A stretch of DNA of 64,000 bases from Pseudoxanthomonas sp. F37 (GTDB lineage Bacteria > Pseudomonadota > Gammaproteobacteria > Xanthomonadales > Xanthomonadaceae). Made by a program: the position numbers and the translations under genes. The first letter of the stretch is position 1. Each line of letters begins with the position of its first letter. The stretch spans positions 3,410,001 through 3,474,000 of the forward strand of contig NZ_CP095187.1 of assembly GCF_022965755.1 (NCBI RefSeq), written 5' to 3'. Positions 25,382 through 42,205 of this stretch are shown one piece after another. The notes beneath the pieces were generated by a model. It saw only the letters and a list, made by a program, of their open reading frames with translations, was not told where the DNA came from and searched no databases.

Positions 25382-25977
25382 GGCGACACCGCCGGCGTGC
25401 CGGCACCCGCGCGATACGGGTAGCGCATGAAGATGTCCGCGATGGCCGCATCGATCTTCGCGCCGCGCTCCTCGGGTTTGGTGCGTCCCACGCGGCCCAC
25501 GGCGACGCCGGTCCAGACCAGCCGGTTCTGCCTGGCATCCACCAGGTCCACGTTGAGGGTGCCCTCGGTGTACTTGTACACATCGGTGCGGTCGCGCCAG
25601 TACGGCACGGCGAAGTACCGCCGTGCGCGGTAGCTGTAGTAGTAGTCGTAGTCCACTTCGGGGGTGCTGTAGACGTCGGTCTTTTCCTGCATGTAGGCGT
25701 TCAGGTTGACCCACAGGTCCGGGGACTTCTCGTCGTACACGTAGCCGCGCGCCTCCATCTGCCGGCGCGCCGCATCCTTGATGCGCCCGCTGGTGAGGGT
25801 GGCGTAGCCCTGGCTCTCGATCGCCAGCGGCGAGTAGAACGCGAACGTGCGGTACCGGGCGAAGTCGGCGGACGGGTCGACATCACTGGTGATGCGAGGG
25901 CCGGTGGCGCAGGCCGCCACCAGCAATATGACCGCCAGCAGCAGGCTGTAGCGGGCGAGGCGGATGATCGCAGGCAT
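25378..25977 (-). CDS. DUF4136 lipoprotein
   Basis: A 199-residue lipoprotein. The signal peptide ends in the lipobox VAAC (Cys at about residue 22). The mature part matches DUF4136: SDVDPSADFARYRTFAFY near the start, repeated Tyr-rich YYYSYRARRYFAVPYWR, and NVDLVDARQNRLVWTGVA. Members are outer-membrane or periplasmic proteins of unknown function. I chose ATG 25977 because it gives the complete signal peptide. A 100-bp gap (25978-26077) separates it from thiC. Confidence 0.87.
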   Translation of the reverse strand: MPAIIRLARYSLLLAVILLVAACATGPRITSDVDPSADFARYRTFAFYSPLAIESQGYATLTSGRIKDAARRQMEARGYVYDEKSPDLWVNLNAYMQEKTDVYSTPEVDYDYYYSYRARRYFAVPYWRDRTDVYKYTEGTLNVDLVDARQNRLVWTGVAVGRVGRTKPEERGAKIDAAIADIFMRYPYRAGAGTPAVSP

Positions 25978-26077
25978 GGCAGGTCTCCGTAGGTTCGGCA
26001 CGGGCCCACCCCTGCGGCGGGCCGTGTCCACAAGTACGGGGATGCGGGCCTATCCGTCGCAGGGCCCGCGTCCGCGT

Positions 26078-28045
<1,968 letters not shown>

Positions 28046-28126
28046 TCACGGGGACGAAGCGGCGGCGCGGCGGCGGACGGATGGCGGGCCCACGGAGGGG
28101 ACGACACGGCAACACGGCGCAGCCTG

Positions 28127-28212
28127 CGAAGCTTCCCTACGCCGGTCTCAACCGGATCAGGTTCGAAGGGTCTGTCTCAATCACCGGCCCGGCCGGCGAT
28201 ACCCCCGCTTCG
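28127..28212 (-). ncRNA. TPP riboswitch (THI element)
   Basis: On the minus strand, P1 is CGAAGC (28212-28207) paired with GCTTCG (28132-28127). Between them are the family landmarks TGAGACAGACCCTTCGAACC, TGATCCGG and the closing GCGTAGGGAAGC. These match the conserved core of the thiamine pyrophosphate aptamer. It lies about 160 bp upstream of thiC. The mode of action, terminator or ribosome-site masking, is not resolved from the sequence. Confidence 0.93.
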
Positions 28213-28247
28213 GGGCGAATTAGACCACAAACCGCCGGGCCGCGACG

Positions 28248-31018: not shown

Positions 31019-32860
31019 TCAGACACCATCCAGCAGCTGCCTGTCGCGTACCGCGCCCTTGTCGGCGCTGGTCGCGAGCAGGGCATAGGCCTTGAGCGCC
31101 GTGCTGACCCTGCGCGCGCGCGGCTGGGCCGGCTTCCAGCCCTTCGCGTCCTGCTCGGCGCGACGCACCGCCAGTTCGTCGTCGGCGACCAGCAGCGAGA
31201 TGGCACGTTGCGGAATATCGATGCGGATGCGGTCGCCGTCGCGCACCAGGCCGATCGCGCCGCCCGCCGCCGCTTCCGGCGACGCATGCCCGATCGACAG
31301 GCCGGAGGTGCCGCCGGAGAAGCGGCCATCCGTCAGCAGCGCGCACTGCTTGCCCAGTCCTTTCGATTTCAGGTAGCTGGTCGGGTACAGCATCTCCTGC
31401 ATGCCGGGCCCGCCTTTCGGGCCTTCGTAGCGGATCACCACCACGTCGCCCGCCTTCACTTCATCGCCCAGGATGCCGGCCACGGCCGCGTCCTGGCTTT
31501 CGAACACGCGCGCAGTGCCTTCGAACACGTGGATCGACTCGTCCACGCCGGCCGTCTTCACCACACAGCCATCGACAGCGATGTTGCCGTACAGCACGGC
31601 CAGGCCACCCTCCTGCGAGAACGCGTGCTCGACGCTGCGGATGCAGCCTTCCGCGCGGTCGGTGTCCAGCGACGGCCAGCGCGTGGCCTGGCTGAAGGCG
31701 ACCTGGGTGGGGATGCCGGCGGGGCCCGCCTTGTAGAACGTGGCGACCGCGTCATCGGGGTTGCCGGCCACGTCCCACTTCGCGATCGCCTCCCCCAGCG
31801 ACTTCGCATGCACGGTGGCGACATCGGTATGCAGCAGGCCGCCGCGTGCGAGCTCGCCGAGGATGGCCATGATGCCGCCGGCGCGGTGCACGTCCTCGAT
31901 GTGGTACTTCTGCGTGTTGGGCGCCACCTTGCACAGCTGCGGCACGCGGCGCGACAGGCGGTCGATGTCGCGCATGTCGAAGGGCACCTCGGCCTCCTGC
32001 GCCGCGGCCAGCAGGTGCAGGATGGTATTGGTGGAACCGCCCATCGCGATGTCCAGCGTCATCGCGTTCTCGAACGCTTCCAGCGTGGCGATGCCGCGCG
32101 GCAGCGCCGTCGCATCCTCGCCGCCGTACCAGCGGTGGCACAGCTCCACCGCCAGCACGCCGGCGCGCTTGAACAACTGCTCGCGGTCCGCATGCGTGGC
32201 GACCACGGTGCCATTACCCGGCAGCGACAGCCCCAGCGCCTCGGTCAGGCAGTTCATCGAGTTGGCGGTGAACATGCCGCTGCACGAACCGCAGGTGGGA
32301 CAGGCGCTGCGCTCGACCGCGGCGACCTCCTCGTCGGACACGTTCGGGTCGGCCGCCATCACCATCGCATCGACGAGGTCGAGCTTGTGGTCGGCCAGGC
32401 GCGTCTTGCCGGCTTCCATCGGCCCGCCGGAGACGAACACCGTCGGGATGTTCAGCCGCAGCGCGGCCATCAGCATGCCGGGGGTGATCTTGTCGCAGTT
32501 GGAGATGCACACCAGCGCATCGGCGCAGTGCGCGTTGACCATGTACTCCACCGAGTCGGCGATCACCTCGCGCGACGGCAGCGAGTACAGCATACCGTCG
32601 TGGCCCATCGCGATGCCGTCGTCCACGGCGATGGTGTCGAATTCCTTGGCGACGCCGCCGACCCGTTCGATCTCGCGCGCCACCAGCTGCCCGAGGTCCT
32701 TGAGGTGCACATGGCCCGGGACGAACTGGGTGAAGGAGTTGGCCACCGCCACGATGGGCTTGTGGAAGTCCTCGTCCTTCATGCCGGTGGCGCGCCACAG
32801 CGCGCGGGCGCCGGCCATGTTGCGGCCGTGGGTGGAGGTCCTGGAACGGTACTCGGGCAT
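31019..32860 (-). CDS. ilvD: Dihydroxy-acid dehydratase IlvD
   Basis: A 613-residue Fe-S enzyme that dehydrates 2,3-dihydroxy acids to the 2-keto acids of valine and isoleucine. Motifs are [13 protein letters not shown] (Cys ligand), [19 protein letters not shown] and the C-terminal [22 protein letters not shown] 32860 gives [17 protein letters not shown], the typical start. It is divergent from the ilvC operon across a 367-bp region that contains the ilv leader. Confidence 0.97.
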
Positions 32861-33012
32861 GAAAACCAACGGTGCGGCGATGACGTGGGAAGCCTTGATT
32901 CTGCTGGCTTTTCACGGTTTCAGTTGCAACCATATCGACTGAAATCATCCGATCGTCGCAATCGGCGCAAAAGCGCTTGACACGCTTTGGAGCGGCATGT
33001 TTCCCTTGCCGC

Positions 33013-33126
33013 ATGTTGCAGCGCCACACACCCACGACGACCGGCCTCACCGCAGCCTCTGCGGCGTCCTTCCTCGTACTCGTCCTTATTACCTCGCCCA
33101 CAAGTGCGGGACGGACCGGCGTGTAA
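33013..33126 (+). CDS. ilv operon leader peptide
   Basis: A 37-codon open frame ahead of ilvC. It starts [12 protein letters not shown] and near its end carries a run FLVLVLITS: Leu-Val-Leu-Val-Leu-Ile, with Thr residues around it. Such runs of the regulatory amino acids are the mark of the ilv/leu leader peptides. It is followed 23 bp later by a terminator hairpin with T-run. A second ATG at 32997 opens the ilvC frame but lacks this signature. No clear Shine-Dalgarno is seen before 33013; a TTGACA at 32977-32982 could be the -35 of the promoter. Confidence 0.85.
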
Positions 33127-33181
33127 GCAGCAGAAACGCCAGATTCGCAAAACCCCGCACTGAGAAGTGCGGGGTTTTTTG
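33103..33181 (+). terminator. Attenuator of the ilv-leu operon
   Basis: The terminator stem pairs ACCCCGCAC (about 33151-33159) with GTGCGGGGT (about 33167-33175), followed by a run of T residues. A copy of the right arm, AAGTGCGGG, occurs earlier at 33103-33111, inside the leader frame just after the Leu/Val/Ile codons. It can pair with the same CCCCGCAC and so acts as the anti-terminator. Ribosome stalling at the control codons would favour it; ample charged tRNA would favour the terminator. The mechanism is inferred by analogy with E. coli ilvGMEDA. Confidence 0.85.
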
Positions 33182-33227
33182 TTTAAGCCCCTTCGATACC
33201 CCATCAACCCTCAGGAAAACCCGCGCC

Positions 33228-34235
33228 ATGACCACCGCCAACGCTCTCCCGCAACCCAAGATCACCGTCGTCGGCTACGGCAGCCAGGGCCGCGCGCACG
33301 CGCTGAACCTGCGCGATTCCGGCTTCGACGTCACGGTGGGCCTGCGCCCGGGCGGCCCGACCGAAGCGAAGGCGCAGGCCGACGGCTTCGCGGTGAAGGC
33401 GGTGGCCGATGCGGTGAAGGACGCCGACCTGGTGGCGGTGCTGACGCCGGACATGGTGCAGAAGAAGCTCTACAACGAGGTGCTGGCGCCGAACATGAAG
33501 CAGGGCGCCGTGCTGCTGTTCGCGCACGGCCTGAACGTGCACTTCGGCATGATCGAGCCGCGCGCCGACCTGGACGTGGTGCTGGTGGCGCCGAAGGGCC
33601 CGGGCGCGCTGGTGCGCCGCGAATACGAGATCGGCCGCGGCGTGCCCTGCATCTACGCCGTCTACCAGGACAAGAGCGGCAAGGCCGAGCAGTTCGCGCT
33701 GGCCTACGCCGGCGGCCTGGGCGGCGCGCGCGCCAACATCATCAAGACCACGTTCAAGGAAGAGACCGAGACCGACCTGTTCGGTGAACAGGCCGTGCTG
33801 TGCGGCGGCGCCTCGTCGCTGGTGCAGGCCGGCTTCGAGACGCTGGTGGAAGCCGGCTACCAGCCGGAAATTGCCTATTACGAAGTGCTGCACGAGCTGA
33901 AGCTGATCGTCGACCTGTTCTACGAAGGCGGCATCACCCGCATGCTGGAATTCATCTCCGAGACCGCGCAGTACGGCGACTTCGTCAGCGGCCCGCGCGT
34001 CATCGACGCGTCGGTGAAGGCGCGCATGAAGGACGTGCTGACCGACATCCAGAACGGCACCTTCACCCGCAACTGGCAGGCCGAGTACGACGCAGGCCTG
34101 CCGAACTACAAGAAGTTCCAGCAGGCCGACAAGGACCACCCCATCGAGAAGGTCGGCAAGGAACTGCGCGCGAAGATGGTGTGGCTGCAGGCCAACGCCG
34201 CGCAACCGGATACAGACGAGCAGGCCGCCGCATGA
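33228..34235 (+). CDS. ilvC: Ketol-acid reductoisomerase IlvC
   Basis: A 335-residue class I enzyme that isomerises and reduces acetolactate or acetohydroxybutyrate with NADPH. The cofactor motif is GYGSQG (16-21) followed by the loop [12 protein letters not shown]. The metal-binding Glu/Asp segments are seen in [19 protein letters not shown] and [19 protein letters not shown]. The N-terminus is short. Its stop overlaps the ilvG start in ATGA, and a GGAAAA lies upstream of its ATG. Confidence 0.97.
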
Positions 34236-35980
34236 ACGCCGCCGCGGCCACTGCCCCACGCAATGGCGCCCGCTGGCTGGCCCACGCCCTGGAAGCCGAG
34301 GGCGTGGACACGCTGTTCGGCTACCCGGGCGGCACCATCATGCCGTTCTACGACGCGCTGGTGGATTCCAACCTGAAGCACATCCTGGTGCGCCACGAGC
34401 AGGGCGCGGCGCTGGCGGCGAACGGGTATGCGCGCGCCAGCGGCAAGGTCGGCGTGTGCGTGGCCACCTCCGGTCCCGGTGCGTCCAACCTGGTGACCGG
34501 CATCGCCGACGCGATGCTCGACTCGGTGCCGATGGTCTGCCTGACCGGCCAGGTCGCCACCACCCTGATGGGCACCGATGCGTTCCAGGAACTGGACGTG
34601 TTCGGCCTGACCCTGCCGATCGTGAAGCACAGCTTCGTCGCCCGGCGCGTGGACGACCTGCCGACCATGGTGCGCGAGGCCTTCCGCATCGCGCGCGAAG
34701 GGCGTCCCGGCCCGGTGCTGATCGACCTGCCGAAGGACGTGCAGATGGCCGACGCCTCGCACTTGCCGGCCCACGTGCCGGCCGGCGTCGATCCGGTTCC
34801 CGCGCCGGAAGATGCCAAGCTGGCCGAGGCGTTGGCCGCGATCGCCGGTGCCGAGAAGCCGGTGATCTACGGCGGCGGCGGCATCGGCATCGCCGACGCG
34901 GTGGACGCCTTCCGCCAGTTCGTCGACGCGACGAAGATCCCCACCGTGCTGACCCTGCGCGGCCTGGGCGCCCTGCCCGCCGGCCACCCGCATTACCTGG
35001 GCATGCTGGGCATGCACGGCACGCGCGCGGCCAACATGGCGGTGCAGGAGTGCGACCTGCTGATCGTGGTGGGCGCGCGCTTCGACGACCGCGCCACCGG
35101 CAAGCTGGCCGAGTTCGCGCCGTTCGCCCGCGTGTTGCACGTGGATGCCGACGCCTACGAGATCGGCAAGCTGCGCACCGCCGACATCGCGGTTCCCGGC
35201 GACGTCGCCACCAGCCTGAAGGCGCTGACCGCGGCACGCAGCACCTGCGACGAGTGGCGCAAGCGCTGCGTGGGCAACCGCGAGCGTTTCGGCTTCCGCT
35301 ACGACGCGCCCGGCAGCGACATCTACGCGCCCGGCCTGCTGAAGCGGCTGAGCGAAGTGGCGCCGGACGACGCGATCATCGCCTGCGACGTGGGCCAGCA
35401 CCAGATGTGGGTGGCGCAGCATTGCGGGTTCGCCCATCCGCGCAACCACCTGACCAGCGGCGCGCTGGGCACGATGGGCTTCGGCCTGCCGGCGGCGATG
35501 GGCGCGCAGTTCGCCTGCCCCGACCGCACCGTGGTGCTGGTCAATGGCGATGGCGGCTTCATGATGAACGTGCAGGAGCTGGCGACCATCGCCCGCTGCA
35601 AGCTGCCGGTGAAGATCGTGCTGATCGACAACAGCGCGCTGGGCATGGTGCGGCAGTGGCAGGAGCTGTTCTTCGCCGAGCGCTACAGCGAGATCGACCT
35701 GTCGGACAATCCCGACTTCGCCGCGCTGGCGCGCGTGTTCGGCATACCGGCCCGCCACATCAGCCGGCGCGACGAAGTCGAGGACGGCCTGGCCGACCTG
35801 CTGGCCCAGCCGGGCCCGGCGCTGCTGCACGTCACCATCGACATCAAGGCCAACGTCTGGCCGCTGGTGCCGCCGAACCACGCCAACAGCTCGATGCTGG
35901 ACGCCAATCCCGCAAAACCATCCGCCGAGCCTGCCGTCGCGGCCGACGGCCCGGAGAAGAAGAATGCGTTACCGGCTTGA
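34232..35980 (+). CDS. ilvG: Acetolactate synthase large subunit (IlvG-type)
   Basis: A 582-residue ThDP-dependent enzyme that makes acetolactate and acetohydroxybutyrate. The ThDP motif is [15 protein letters not shown], with N-terminal [15 protein letters not shown] and the activating Glu in [15 protein letters not shown]. The FAD/quinone-like segment is [20 protein letters not shown]. It overlaps ilvC by 4 bp and ilvM by 17 bp. The C-terminal tail (about 25 residues) is Ala/Pro-rich and variable. I use ilvG because a short regulatory subunit follows, as in E. coli IlvGM. Confidence 0.95.
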
Positions 35981-36236
35981 ACTCAGGCTCAAACCTGCCG
36001 AAGGCGCGTTGCTGCGCGTCCTGGGCATGATCGAGCGCCGCGGCTTTCCGCCCCACGCGGTCCATGCCACCCACGACGGCGAAGGCTATTGGGCGCTGGC
36101 GCTGGTGATCGACAGCACCCGCGCGCCGGAGACGCTGCGCCAGCAACTGCTGAAGATCTACGATGTGGAGGAACTGTCCTTCAGCGCGGTGCAGGAACTG
36201 AGCAGGGACCGCCGCCACCAGGACCGCGCCGCATGA
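35964..36236 (+). CDS. ilvM: Acetolactate synthase small subunit (IlvM-type)
   Basis: A 90-residue ACT-domain protein, the short regulatory subunit of acetolactate synthase. [20 protein letters not shown] gives the beta-strand/helix start, LLRVLGMIERRGF the ACT helix, and YWALALVIDST the second strand. The rest ends in Arg/Asp-rich residues. It overlaps the large-subunit gene by 17 bp, so translational coupling is likely. As in E. coli IlvM, a single ACT domain may not respond to valine. Confidence 0.9.
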   Translation: MRYRLELRLKPAEGALLRVLGMIERRGFPPHAVHATHDGEGYWALALVIDSTRAPETLRQQLLKIYDVEELSFSAVQELSRDRRHQDRAA

Positions 36237-36308
36237 ATGCCACGCCCGCCAACGCGGACGCCGTGGTCCGGAGGCGTCTTCTTCGACATCAGCCGTTCGC
36301 GTGCCGCG

Positions 36309-37438
36309 ATGCCTGATGCCGGCCGCGCCCCCGCCGGTACCGACCCCGACGTAGGCGACGTCGCCGTCACCGTGGCCGACGTGCTGGCGGCGCAGGCGCG
36401 GCTGCGCCGTTACCTGCCGCCCACCCCGATGCATCACGCCGAACGCTTCGGCGTGATGCTGAAACTGGAAAACCTGCAGCGCACCGGTTCGTACAAGGTG
36501 CGGGGCGCGCTGAATGCATTGCTGGCCGCGCGCGAGCGCGGCGACCGCCGCCCGGTGATCGCGGCATCGGCGGGCAACCATGCGCAGGGCCTGGCCTGGG
36601 CCGCTTACCGGCTGGGCGTGCAGGCCATCACCGTGATGCCGCACGGCGCACCGGCGACCAAGATCGCCGGGGTGGCGCACTGGGGTGCCACCGTGCGCCA
36701 GCACGGCGACAGCTACGACGAAGCCTTCGCCTTCGCCAGGGAACTGGCCGAACAGAACGGCTACCGCTTCCTGTCCGCCTTCGACGATCCGGACGTGATC
36801 GCCGGCCAGGGCACGGTGGGCATCGAGATCGCTCCCTACACGCCCGATGTCGTCATCGTGCCCATCGGCGGCGGCGGCCTGGCCTCCGGCGTGGCGCTGG
36901 CGCTGAAGTCGCAGGGCGTGCGCGTGGTCGGGGCCCAGGTCGAGGGCGTGGATTCGATGATCCGCGCGATGAAGGGCGACCTCACGCCGGTCAACCCGGT
37001 GGCTTCGCTGGCCGACGGCGTACGGGTGAAGGTGCCCGGCTTCATCACCCGGCGCCTGTGCACGCAGCTGCTGGACGACGTGGTGACCGTGCGCGAAGCC
37101 GAACTGCGCGAGACCCTGGTGCGGCTGGCGCTGGAAGAACACCTGATCGCCGAGGGCGCCGGTGCGCTGGCGCTGGCGGCGGGTCGCCGCGTGGCCGGCA
37201 GGCGCAAGTGCGCGGTGGTGTCCGGCGGCAACATCGACGCCACCGTGCTGGCGCAGCTGCTGTCCGACGTGCGCCCGCGTCCGCCGCGCAAGCCACGCCG
37301 CCGCAACGCCGAGGGCGAGCCCTCGCTTGCCCGCGGCCGCGCACCGCGCGCGGCCGTCCACCCATCCCCCGCAAAGACCGGTGCGCGCCGATACGAGGCC
37401 CCCGCCATGGAAACAGAAGTACACGAGGAACCCATCTG

Positions 37439-37442
<4 letters not shown>
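36309..37442 (+). CDS. ilvA: Threonine dehydratase IlvA, short form
   Basis: A 377-residue PLP enzyme that deaminates threonine to 2-ketobutyrate, the first step of isoleucine synthesis. The PLP Lys is in [13 protein letters not shown], followed by [14 protein letters not shown] and the glycine loop IGGGGLASG. It lacks the C-terminal ACT regulatory domain of the long E. coli enzyme (514 aa); the last 65 residues are a basic, Pro-rich tail. The start is uncertain. A 36237 start would add 24 residues, and another ATG at 36233 overlaps the ilvM stop, but its frame leaves after 27 codons. Codon use suggests a frame change near 36270. Confidence 0.88.
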
Positions 37443-38992
<1,550 letters not shown>

Positions 38993-39124: not shown

Positions 39125-40546
39125 ATGACCGCGCCACGCACACTCTTCGACAAACTGTGGGACGCCCACGTCGTGGTCCCCGAGACCGACGCGGCCCCCG
39201 CCGTGCTGTACATCGATCTGCACCTGATCCACGAGGTCACCTCGCCGCAGGCCTTCACCGAGCTGAGGGCGCGCGGCCTGGCGCCGCGGCGCCCGGACCG
39301 CACCAAGGCGACGATGGACCATTCCACGCCCACCTTGCCCGCCGGGCCCGACGGCAGGCTGCCGTACTACACGCAGGCCGCGGAGACGCAGGTCGACACG
39401 CTGGCGCGCAACTGCGCCGAGTACGGCATCGAGCTGTTCGACATGGCCTCGCCGAACCGCGGCATCGTCCACGTCATCGCGCCCGAGCAGGGCTTCACCC
39501 TGCCGGGCATGACCATCGTCTGCGGCGACAGCCACACCAGCACGCACGGCGCGTTCGGGTCGCTGGCGTTCGGCATCGGCACCAGCGAGGTCGGCCACGT
39601 GCTGGCCACGCAGTGCCTGCTGCAGCGCCGTCCCAGGACGATGGCCATCACCGTCGATGGCGTGCTCGCCCCCGGCGTGGGCGCCAAGGACATCGTGCTG
39701 CACGTGATCGGCGTGATCGGCGTCAACGGCGGCACCGGCCACGTGCTCGAGTTCCGCGGCAGCGCCATCGAGGCGCTGGACATGGAGCAGCGCATGACCC
39801 TGTGCAACATGTCCATCGAAGCCGGCGCGCGCGCCGGCATGGTGGCGCCGGACCAGACCACGTTCGACTGGGTGGCGAAGACGCCGCGCGGGCCCAAGGG
39901 CGAGGCGTTTGACACCGCCGTCGCCTACTGGAAGACGCTGCGCAGCGACGAGGGCGCGGTGTTCGACGCGGAAGTGCGCGTAGATGCCGCCGACATCCGC
40001 CCCACCCTGACCTGGGGCACGCACCCGGGCACCGCGATCGCGGTGGATGCGCCGATTCCCGCACCTGCCAATGCCGCCGACCAGAAGGGCCTGGACTACA
40101 TGCGCCTGAGCGCCGGCCATGCGGTGGCGGGGACGCCGGTGGACGTGGTGTTCGTGGGATCGTGCACCAACGGCCGCCTGCGCGACATGCGCGAAGTGGC
40201 GCAGGTCCTGGATGGGCGCAGGGTCGCCGCGGGCGTGCGCATGCTGGTGGTGCCCGGTTCGGAGATCGTCAAGCGCCAGGCCGAGGCCGAGGGCATCGAC
40301 CGCATCGTGCGCGAAGCCGGCGCCGAGTGGCGTGAACCGGGCTGTTCCATGTGCATCGCGATGAACGGCGACCTGGTCGCGCCCGGCCAACTGGCCGTGA
40401 GCACCAGCAACCGCAACTTCGAAGGCCGCCAGGGACCCGGCGCCCGTACGCTGCTGGCGTCGCCGCTGACGGCAGCGTGGGCCGCGGTGAACGGCCACGT
40501 CAGCGATCCGCGCGAACTGTTCCGCGCGCAGAAGGAGGTGGCGTGA
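39125..40546 (+). CDS. leuC: 3-isopropylmalate dehydratase large subunit LeuC
   Basis: A 473-residue aconitase-like subunit that isomerises 2- to 3-isopropylmalate together with LeuD. The 4Fe-4S cysteines lie in [12 protein letters not shown] and [32 protein letters not shown] and [14 protein letters not shown] are conserved segments. The ATG at 39125 gives the standard start [12 protein letters not shown]. Its TGA overlaps the leuD ATG (TGATG). Confidence 0.96.
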
Positions 40547-41127
40547 TGGCCGGGTTCCGCGAACTGCGCTCGAAGAGCGTGGTGTTGGCGCAGACCAACA
40601 TCGACACCGACCAGATCATCCCCGCGCGCTTCCTGTCCACGACCGAACGCGCGGGCCTGGGTCGCAGCGCCTTCAACGACTGGCGCTGGCAGGCCGACGG
40701 GTCGCCGAACCCGGCGTTCCCGTTCAACCAGCCGGAGAACCAGGGCCGCAGCATCCTGCTGGCCGGCCGCAACTTCGGCTGCGGCTCCTCGCGCGAGCAT
40801 GCGCCCTGGGCGCTGACCGACCTGGGCCTGCGCGCCATCGTCAGCAGCGAGATCGCCGACATCTTCCGCAACAATAGCCTGAAGAACGGCCTGCTGCCCA
40901 TCGTGCTGCCGGAGGAGATCGTGCAGTCGTTGATGGAACGGCCGGACGACGAACTGACCATCGACGTCGCCGCACGCGAACTGCGGGCGCCCGACGGTTC
41001 CGTCTTCGGCTTCCCGCTGGACGCCTTCGCGCAGACCTGCCTGCTGGAAGGCGTGGACGAACTGGGCTACCTGCTGGCCCGCCACACCGACATCGAAACC
41101 TACGAGGCTACCCGCCATGCACGCTGA
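40546..41127 (+). CDS. leuD: 3-isopropylmalate dehydratase small subunit LeuD
   Basis: A 193-residue swivel-domain subunit of isopropylmalate isomerase. [20 protein letters not shown] and [17 protein letters not shown] are the family motifs, the latter near the active site of the heterodimer. GAAGGAGGTG just before the ATG is a strong ribosome-binding site. It overlaps leuC by one base and leuB by 11. Confidence 0.96.
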
Positions 41128-42205
41128 CATCGCCGTACTGCCCGGGGACGGCATCGGTCCCGAAGTCACCGCCGCCGCCGTCGCCGTGCTGCGCACGCTG
41201 GCGCGCCGCCACGGCCACAGCTTCGACTTCCGCGAATACGACATCGGCGGCATCGCCATCGACCGGCACGGCGAGCCGCTGCCACAGGCCACGCTGCAGG
41301 GCTGCCAGCAGGCCGATGCCGTGCTGCTGGGCGCGGTCGGCGGGCCGAAATGGTCCGACCCCAACGCGAAGGTGCGCCCCGAGCAGGGCCTGCTGGCGCT
41401 GCGCAAGGGCCTGGGGCTGTTCGCCAACCTGCGCCCCGTGCGTCCGCACCCGGCCGCGCTGAACGCCTCGCCCATCAAGCCGCACCTGCTGACCGGCGTG
41501 GACATCGTGGTGGTGCGCGAGCTGACCGGCGGCATCTACTTCGGCGAGAAGACCCGCGATGCGCGCGGCGCCAGCGACCTGTGCAGCTATTCGGTCGGCG
41601 AGATCGAGCGCGTGGTGCGCAGCGCCTTCAGGCTGGCCCGCCAACGCCGCAGCTACCTGGTGTCGGTGGACAAGGCGAACGTGCTGGAGACCTCGCGCCT
41701 GTGGCGCGACGTGGCCTCGCGCATCGGCCGCGAGGAATTCCCCGACGTGAAGCTGGAGCACCAGCTGGTCGACTCGATGGCGATGCACCTGCTGGCCAAG
41801 CCGCGGGAGTACGACGTGATCGTCACCGAGAACATGTTCGGCGACATCCTCACCGACGAGGCCTCGATGCTGGCCGGCTCGCTGGGCCTGCTGCCGTCGG
41901 CCTCGCTGGGCGACGGCAAGGTCGGCCTGTACGAACCCATCCACGGTTCCGCGCCCGACATCGCCGGCAAGGGCATCGCCAACCCGTACGCCACCATTCT
42001 CAGCTGCGCCTTGCTGCTGCGCCATTCGCTGGGCCTGCACGAAGAGGCCGACTGCATCGAACGCGCGGTGGACGCCGCACTGAACGCACAGGTGTTCACC
42101 AACGACCTGGCCACCGGCGGCCGCGGCGTGTCCACGCAGGTCGCCGCCCAGGCGGTGATCGAGCAGATGCAGGCGCACTGCTACGTGGCCGAGCTGCGCG
42201 ACTGA
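41117..42205 (+). CDS. leuB: 3-isopropylmalate dehydrogenase LeuB
   Basis: A 362-residue NAD-dependent dehydrogenase that oxidises and decarboxylates 3-isopropylmalate in leucine synthesis. [10 protein letters not shown] is at the start. [24 protein letters not shown] and the nucleotide-site [19 protein letters not shown] follow. The metal-binding Asp pair is in [16 protein letters not shown]. It is the last gene of the operon; 20 bp later the convergent GGDEF gene ends, with no clear terminator between them. Confidence 0.97.

Follow-up and report, generated by a model that had tools for sequence, protein, structure and literature searches.

A probable leaderless attenuator ahead of the Ile-Val-Leu operon of Pseudoxanthomonas sp. 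F37 and its relatives in the Xanthomonadales

The DNA between the divergent genes ilvD and ilvC of Pseudoxanthomonas sp. F37 very probably contains a ribosome-mediated attenuator of the isoleucine-valine-leucine operon, the sensor open reading frame (ORF) of which would be translated from a leaderless mRNA. The basis for this reading is the anatomy of the element, its conservation, the covariation of its pairing arms and the folding energies, all obtained from the sequence and its comparison with relatives. The leaderless layout is the unusual part of the element, which as an attenuator is otherwise ordinary. Coordinates refer to the window, i.e. the whole stretch of 64,000 nucleotides that was analysed (positions 3,410,001 to 3,474,000 of contig NZ_CP095187.1). 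The source genome is 3.97 Mb in one contig.

Anatomy of the element

The arrangement of positions 33013-33180 supports their interpretation as a complete ribosome-mediated transcription attenuator. A preliminary description of this DNA had proposed a 37-codon frame with the control run FLVLVLI, a terminator hairpin after it, and a repeat of the right arm of the terminator inside the leader that could compete for the left arm. These parts were found at 33013-33126, 33149-33180 and 33102-33110, respectively. The claim that peptide, antiterminator and terminator together make up an attenuation device holds as well, since all three are present and recur in the family and in the order. The leaderless layout, the 1:2 hairpin and the choice of rare codons in the control run formed no part of that description.

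The leader ORF (33013-33126, plus strand, as are all features of the element) begins with ATG and encodes 37 amino acids. A comparable frame exists in 41 ilvC and 58 ilvD loci of the family. A TTC codon (33070-33072) precedes the control codons CTC GTA CTC GTC CTT ATT (Leu Val Leu Val Leu Ile; 33073-33090). Arm 1 of the 1:2, or anti-antiterminator, hairpin (33074-33086) lies over the control codons. In the RNAalifold consensus of 40 sequences, by which this arm was defined, its partner is 33103-33114; the window's own best fold pairs 33066-33083 with 33100-33116. Arm 2, AAGTGCGGG (33102-33110), is able to pair with arm 1 or with arm 3. It is a copy of the right arm of the terminator, where the same letters are found at 33165-33173. 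A small inner hairpin, GGCGU/ACGCC (33118-33140), spans the stop codon and is stacked within the antiterminator in the fold of 33102-33163.

The terminator scan and covariation define arm 3, which is the left arm of the terminator (AAAACCCCGCACT, 33149-33161), and arm 4, which comprises the right arm and the U tract (33166-33180). Together they form a 13-bp terminator, AAAACCCCGCACT-GAGA-AGTGCGGGGTTTT (33149-33178), with a T run up to 33180. The site 33149-33180 is the only terminator-like one within 32800-33300. As shuffled versions of this region yield 0.6 such sites on average, the presence of a terminator proves little by itself. RNA folding was named as a check in the preliminary description. 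Among 200 shuffles of the predicted transcript, 33013-33180, 198 fold less stably than the transcript itself (z -3.05).

Operon and genomic setting

The attenuator is followed by ilvC, which encodes ketol-acid reductoisomerase (33228-34235; NF004017, 515 bits against a cut-off of 336) and has a Shine-Dalgarno-like AGGA at its own start. The stop codon of ilvC is overlapped, as ATGA, by the start of ilvG, the acetolactate synthase large subunit (34232-35980, start taken from the sequence; NF006524, 928 bits, cut-off 738). The genes that come next on the plus strand are an ilvM-like small subunit (35964-36236; NF008362, 37.4 bits, under the cut-off of 68), threonine dehydratase ilvA (36237-37442; NF006455, 694 bits, cut-off 489), 2-isopropylmalate synthase leuA (37463-38992, start approximate; NF002086, 733 bits, cut-off 532), leuC (39128-40546, start approximate; TIGR00170, 655 bits, cut-off 560), leuD (40546-41127; TIGR00171, 192 bits, cut-off 116) and leuB (41117-42205; TIGR00169, 476 bits, cut-off 353). 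The union of Ile, Val and Leu genes in one operon, as described earlier, is thus confirmed by ilvC, ilvG, ilvA, leuA, leuC, leuD and leuB, which exceed their NCBIfam cut-offs, the ilvM-like gene falling below its own. The gene ilvD (31019-32860, minus strand; NF009103, 1170 bits, cut-off 710) diverges from the ilvC operon. Elsewhere in the window, a TPP riboswitch at gathering score (28116-28216, minus strand) lies ahead of a large minus-strand ORF (25701-28115).

Distribution in the family, order and class

The gene ilvC is present in 104 of 149 genomes of the family Xanthomonadaceae, and 102 of these 104 loci were examined (G014 and G040 were left out). The element sits before ilvC in 41 of the 102 and before ilvD in 58, where the ilvD start is 15-78 nt past the model match. 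Three loci are left, of which L119 and L125 lie on short contigs, the match in L125 being a partial one that is cut. The third, L130, one of the 61 family loci that are not of the ilvC type, gave no match to the element with the covariance model R1. No ilvC match was obtained in 45 of the 149 genomes (39 of the 135 of good quality). This suggests that the family has lost branched-chain synthesis repeatedly, or that these genomes carry a very different enzyme.

The 41 ilvC-type loci were found by a peptide pattern, an Ile/Leu/Val run followed by (T/S)-x-P-x-(G/S/A)-A. Because the pattern itself requires these residues, they are not independent evidence in the 41 loci; the codons are. When named genomes were scanned independently with a leader pattern of 23 bases, 71 loci came up, from Xanthomonas, Pseudoxanthomonas, Luteimonas, Thermomonas, Stenotrophomonas, Lysobacter, [Pseudomonas] boreopolis and metagenome assemblies. 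The model R1 was built from 40 ilvC-type or pattern-found sequences. It matches 318 of 395 genomes of the family, 278 of 397 of the order and 23 of 369 of the class, tallies that include the training genomes, asnB-type matches and weak matches that were not inspected. In the class-wide search (369 genomes), the strong matches among those listed were all inside the order.

In the other families of the order, a branched-chain leader was seen in all 20 R1 matches that were fetched. It stands before ilvD in 11, leuA in 8 and ilvE in one, as determined by comparison with NCBIfam for one locus of each kind and by eye for the others. The gene downstream is a member of the pathway (ilvC, ilvD, leuA or ilvE) in every locus read. 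One mark of an attenuator, a short leader ORF in which codons for the amino acids of the pathway are clustered, is found both in the window and in its relatives.

Pairing arms and covariation

The 41 ilvC-type and 71 pattern-found loci, 112 together, reduce to 90 distinct ones after deduplication. A terminator-like hairpin follows the stop codon in 89 of the 90; the ninetieth sequence, L145, ends 45 bases past the search motif. A terminator hairpin is also present in all 78 ilvD-type and other-family loci, though apparently misplaced in one (L307). Its position between the leader ORF and the first structural gene is that of the intrinsic terminator of an attenuator. In 40 aligned sequences, 94.8 percent of the cells of the terminator stem are paired. 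Both sides have changed in 5 pairs and 10 cells, compared to means of 1.5 and 1.6 in shuffles and to at most 2 and 7 in slid registers.

Arms 2 and 3 form 8 of 8 pairs in 75 of the 89 loci, 7 of 8 in 13 and 6 of 8 in one. In register, 98.8 percent of the cells are paired, as opposed to 36-62 percent when the register is slid. Five of the eight pairs are invariant within the ilvC-type alignment, and arm 2 belonged to the pattern by which the 71 loci were found. The independent test of the arms comes from loci found with R1, namely the 58 of the ilvD type and 19 of the 20 from other families (L307 was dropped, its terminator call being too short), a set that is not wholly blind to the arms because R1 contains both of them as sequence. 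If the leader beyond the control run is searched for the 8 bases that pair best with the left arm, all 8 pair in 31 of the 58 ilvD-type and 9 of the 19 other-family loci and 7 of 8 in 27 and 9, respectively; one locus has 4 of 8. For shuffled leaders the figures are 3 and 2 percent (8 of 8) and 27 and 24 percent (7 of 8). Changes in the two arms go hand in hand: the arms read GGTGCGGG/CCCGCACC in the ilvC-type, GGCGCGGG/CCCGCGCC in the ilvD-type and TAGCGGGA/CCCCGCTA in the other-family loci, and in R1-found loci GGGAGCGG changes jointly with CCGCTCCC. Both the leader frame and the alternative stem, on whose conservation in relatives the preliminary description had staked its proposal, are conserved.

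As in other attenuators, the antiterminator competing for the left arm of the terminator is accompanied by a 1:2 hairpin. In the RNAalifold consensus of 40 sequences this hairpin covers the control codons with 10 pairs, none of which has changed on both sides.

The 8-bp core of arm 3 finds a better partner in arm 2 than in arm 4 in 47 of the 89 loci, an equal one in 42 and a worse one in none. The difference is commonly due to an A-C mismatch in the terminator, the column pair of which is unpaired in 20 of the 40 aligned sequences. The mismatch is kept in the terminators of many relatives (L042, L044, L046, L048, L134 and others), while the competing antiterminator is perfect. The U tract is weak (GGGGTTTCGCG, no more than 4 T in 8) in 18 of the 22 named Xanthomonas loci of the deduplicated set. 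With its mismatched stems and the weak U tracts of Xanthomonas, the balance looks as if it were tuned to read-through.

Folding energies

The antiterminator (fold of 33102-33163) and the terminator of the window have computed energies of -23.4 and -22.4 kcal/mol; the medians of the 89 loci are -24.4 and -22.4 kcal/mol. The antiterminator is at least as stable as the terminator in 64 of the 89. In folds of the RNA that stop short of arm 4, the median number of 2:3 pairs is 0.99 of 8 without a stalled ribosome and 7.9 with one held up on the Ile codon (89 loci). In the full equilibrium fold with arm 4, the terminator is favoured by the median in all three scenarios, including that of the stalled ribosome (89 loci). 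A simple equilibrium switch was rejected for this reason, as the terminator wins every scenario once arm 4 is present. The switch would thus have to be kinetic and co-transcriptional.

Control codons and ribosome geometry

A ribosome extends forward by about 13 nt from the start of its A-site codon. In the window, the last control codon begins 15 nt before arm 2. A constant spacing of 15 nt across all 89 loci was dropped as evidence, being fixed by construction in the 71 pattern-found and the 41 regex-found loci. Among the R1-found loci, 50 of 58 of the ilvD type and 18 of 19 of other families have a distance of 11-16 nt, with outliers of 8-27 nt; the 8-base match of arm 2 may slide by a base or two and shift this measure. 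The first base of the stop codon is 22-30 nt from arm 3 in 87 of the 89 loci and 17 and 40 nt from it in the other two, a spacing by which a ribosome at the stop codon would leave arms 3 and 4 free. With the usual size of the footprint, these distances would free arm 2 when the ribosome stalls and cover it when the ribosome has reached the stop, as attenuation demands.

The Ile codon is ATT in all 41 ilvC-type loci, the Leu codon before it is CTT in 38 and CTC in 3, and the Ala codon is GCG in all 41. In ten gene stretches of the window (4,207 codons), CTT and CTC account for 0.5 and 7.5 percent of the Leu codons, GTA for 2.9 percent of the Val codons and ATT for 2.2 percent of the Ile codons. 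The main codons CTG and ATC are absent from the six control positions of the 41 loci, and the main Val codon, GTG, occurs there 15 times. The rare synonyms may sharpen the response or may serve the pairing of arm 1.

Promoter and leaderless start

A -35 hexamer, TTGACA (32977-32982), is located 36 nt ahead of the leader ATG and is similarly placed in relatives. An extended -10 region (TG, T, TTCCCT; 32998-33006) matches TATAAT poorly and is the weak point of the promoter reading; a scan of 32800-33300 for the sigma-70 consensus called no promoter at the leader. The 41 ilvC-type loci have T at -12 in 38 and G or T at -15 in 41. Judged by the spacing from the -35 hexamer, transcription is predicted to start at 33013, the A of the leader ATG, with a tolerance of about 3 nt.

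An exact TTGACA is found 35-39 nt 5' of the leader ATG in all 41 ilvC-type loci and is the sole copy within 6-150 nt. The start codons of these loci were set from the peptide, except that L056 was set by hand and L043 was moved to an upstream ATG, with TTGACA at 37 nt; the start first chosen for L043 gives 40 of 41. The TTGACA-ATG distance is 36-38 nt in all 71 loci found by the leader pattern, which is free of promoter sequence. The hexamer is 35-38 nt upstream in all 58 ilvD-type loci (56 exact, two with 5 of 6 bases) and in all 20 other-family loci (19 exact, one with 5 of 6 bases). In these sets of 71, 58 and 20, the evidence is the tight clustering rather than the presence of the hexamer, because the ATG was chosen among in-frame ATGs having a hexamer 30-44 nt upstream. 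The spacing is common to the 99 element-bearing loci of the family and to 20 of 20 in other families. As a background, the 102 loci contain 14,830 ATGs, those of the leaders among them, and 103 of these have an exact TTGACA at 35-39 nt.

The Shine-Dalgarno duplex at the leader ATG has a median energy of 0 kcal/mol and is -4 kcal/mol or lower in 4 of the 41 loci (with the first-chosen start for L043). At the ilvC ATG of the same loci the median is -5.1 kcal/mol, and 35 of 41 are at or below -4. Apart from the 4 exceptions, the start codons thus lack a Shine-Dalgarno sequence, as is expected of leaderless mRNAs. The base before the leader ATG is C in 34 of the 41 ilvC-type loci. The 5' end of the leader is conserved at the nucleotide level and is CA-rich, ATG YTG CAN CGC CAC AC within the first seven codons. 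CA repeats after the start codon enhance the translation of leaderless and leadered mRNAs, according to part of the text of PMC9031893. It seems from these sequence features that the leader is translated from a leaderless mRNA; a 5' UTR of 1-5 nt is indistinguishable from a strictly leaderless start.

Proposed mechanism

By combining the sequence with its comparisons, it is possible to outline how the element might work. The transcript start, the leaderless initiation, the order of folding and the response to amino acids are the parts that we infer. RNA polymerase would begin the transcript with the A of the leader ATG, give or take about 3 nt. A ribosome would then load on the 5'-terminal AUG, without the help of a Shine-Dalgarno sequence, and trail the polymerase. 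When charged Leu-, Val- or Ile-tRNA is scarce, the ribosome would stall in CTC GTA CTC GTC CTT ATT. With ATT in the A site, at 15 nt from arm 2, its front edge would be about at the start of this arm if its footprint is of the usual size. The stalled ribosome would cover arm 1 and leave arm 2 free for pairing with arm 3, so that no terminator forms and the operon is transcribed. With the amino acids in good supply, the ribosome would reach the stop codon and cover arm 2, arms 3 and 4 would form the terminator, and transcription would end near 33180. On an RNA without a ribosome, the 1:2 hairpin would form, followed by the terminator.

Alternative explanations

The element might be a conventional attenuator, whose mRNA starts tens of bases upstream and has an ordinary 5' UTR, TTGACA being a minor promoter or a regulator site. 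This is unlikely. It would agree with the weak -10 region, which leaves the promoter to be recognized by its -35 hexamer and spacing alone. In the 41 loci, however, TTGACA is the sole exact copy within 150 nt and keeps a near-fixed distance to the ATG, and most leader ATGs have no Shine-Dalgarno sequence, whereas the ilvC genes of the same loci have one. It is very unlikely that the terminator is real but obeys another signal, such as global translation reported by the leader ORF or a protein that binds the RNA. Conservation of the first seven codons at the nucleotide level too would fit such a signal, but the run is filled by Leu, Val and Ile codons in 41 loci, many of them rare synonyms, the gene downstream belongs to the pathway in every locus read (ilvC, ilvD, leuA, ilvE), and a sister element before asnB carries Asn codons instead.

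An additional role in trans, as a small RNA or a peptide, for the terminated leader of about 168 nt is decidedly improbable. A precedent is the leaderless trpL of Sinorhizobium meliloti, whose RNA and peptide are both active in trans as described in a portion of PMC7298713, and the conservation of nucleotides at the 5' end of the leader and in CTTATTACC points the same way; CTTATTACCTCGCC would be a candidate seed for such an RNA. Pairing, codon choice and initiation may nevertheless account for this conservation. Short ORFs are frequent in high-GC DNA, and with 0.6 terminator-like sites per shuffle a stable terminator could stand behind a random ORF by accident; the comparison refutes such a coincidence, the probability of which is negligible, as the element recurs across family and order and its arms covary. 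A ribosome-mediated attenuator with a leaderless sensor ORF remains the preferred reading.

A related element before asnB

The model R1 also matches the same genome at about 1322472-1322655 (1.32 Mb, outside the window), ahead of asnB (NF006949, 781 bits, cut-off 499). The leader there, MPCRAIIANNRNNLRPNNRTRAMRLCD, is an Asn-rich ORF and is accompanied by a terminator and a repeated arm. An Asn-rich leader of like form, followed by a CCCGCAT-type terminator, is present in 26 of 30 fetched asnB loci of the family. L264, L265 and L274, all of one genus, showed neither the usual asnB start nor an Asn leader, and the L266 locus extends past the end of its contig. A TTG-type -35 hexamer at 33-39 nt was recognized in 7 of the 26 asnB leaders; the others, L272 excepted, have TTGC at a similar distance upstream as judged by eye. 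The asnB element is a similar candidate attenuator that would respond to asparagine and is perhaps leaderless, its leaderless start being less secure than that of the branched-chain leader. A limited search of the literature found no earlier report of an asparagine leader-peptide attenuator. Further loci of this genome were scanned for leader ORFs, namely his, homoserine dehydrogenase and those of the chorismate-binding (trpE/pabB) type. The scan, which stopped short of the homoserine dehydrogenase start, gave none that convinced.

Relation to known attenuators

In the features that can be tested on sequence, the element agrees with a ribosome-mediated ilv/leu attenuator, and it is outside the leader families of Rfam. 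Membership in these families was rejected, since none is matched at gathering score: Leu_leader (RF00512) and Thr_leader (RF00506) give subthreshold scores of 21.5 of 50 and 25.6 of 55 bits. Comparative genomics is said to have predicted attenuators of amino-acid operons in proteobacteria (Vitreschak et al. 2004, as its title has it).

The leaders of the enterobacterial ilvGMEDA, ilvBN and leu operons, like textbook gammaproteobacterial attenuators, carry a 5' UTR and a ribosome-binding site. The present element shares with these three the branched-chain control codons in a leader peptide, the 1:2, 2:3 and 3:4 pairing and the intrinsic terminator before the first gene. All three operons are listed as attenuated in a section of PMC1183508. 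The ilvBNC operon of Corynebacterium glutamicum likewise has a branched-chain leader peptide with a terminator and an antiterminator, as outlined in an excerpt of PMC11857589. Its start codon is one nucleotide from the transcript start, and it has no ribosome-binding site according to a title cited there (PMC11857589, in part). By the description in that excerpt (PMC11857589), it differs in belonging to an Actinobacterium and in having a 15-amino-acid leader, MTIIRLVVVTARRLP, a three-hairpin layout and ilvB as the first gene. Leaderless leader peptides precede leuA, ilvBHC, trpE and other amino-acid genes of Streptomyces lividans, which is of another phylum and has other peptides (PMC8079986, in part). 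The trpL of Sinorhizobium meliloti is a proteobacterial attenuator whose RNA begins at the ATG of the leader ORF; it differs from the present element in its host, an Alphaproteobacterium, its amino acid, tryptophan, and its 14-amino-acid peptide (PMC7298713, in part). Leaderless attenuators are on record in mycobacteria as well (cited in a passage of PMC9031893).

Searches of open-access papers, which leave out most of the subscription literature, found no report of leaderless attenuators in Xanthomonadales. An open-access search for published transcript starts of Xanthomonas likewise found none. When Li et al. 2017 (PMC5733099) was searched for mentions of an operon, a promoter, a leader, attenuation or a transcription start, none came up.

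Biological significance

On balance, leaderless sensor ORFs are somewhat likely to be a general attenuator design throughout the Xanthomonadales, comprising the branched-chain element before ilvC, ilvD, leuA or ilvE and the Asn attenuator at asnB. If the leaderless version is indeed order-wide, leadered and leaderless layouts of attenuators would be interchangeable. The order would then offer a natural comparison for the timing of ribosome loading, for polymerase pausing and for the coupling of the two machines without a 5' UTR. With the asnB element, asparagine would join the amino acids that are sensed through leader-peptide attenuation.

The Xanthomonadales include crop pathogens. According to a Xanthomonas paper, mutation of ilvC disrupts the production of DSF-family signals (Li et al., as cited in a passage of PMC13106696), and the attenuator could for this reason touch cell-cell signalling. 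If ribosomes load directly at a 5'-terminal AUG without recognizing a Shine-Dalgarno sequence, these switches could sense the state of the translation machinery besides the supply of the amino acid.
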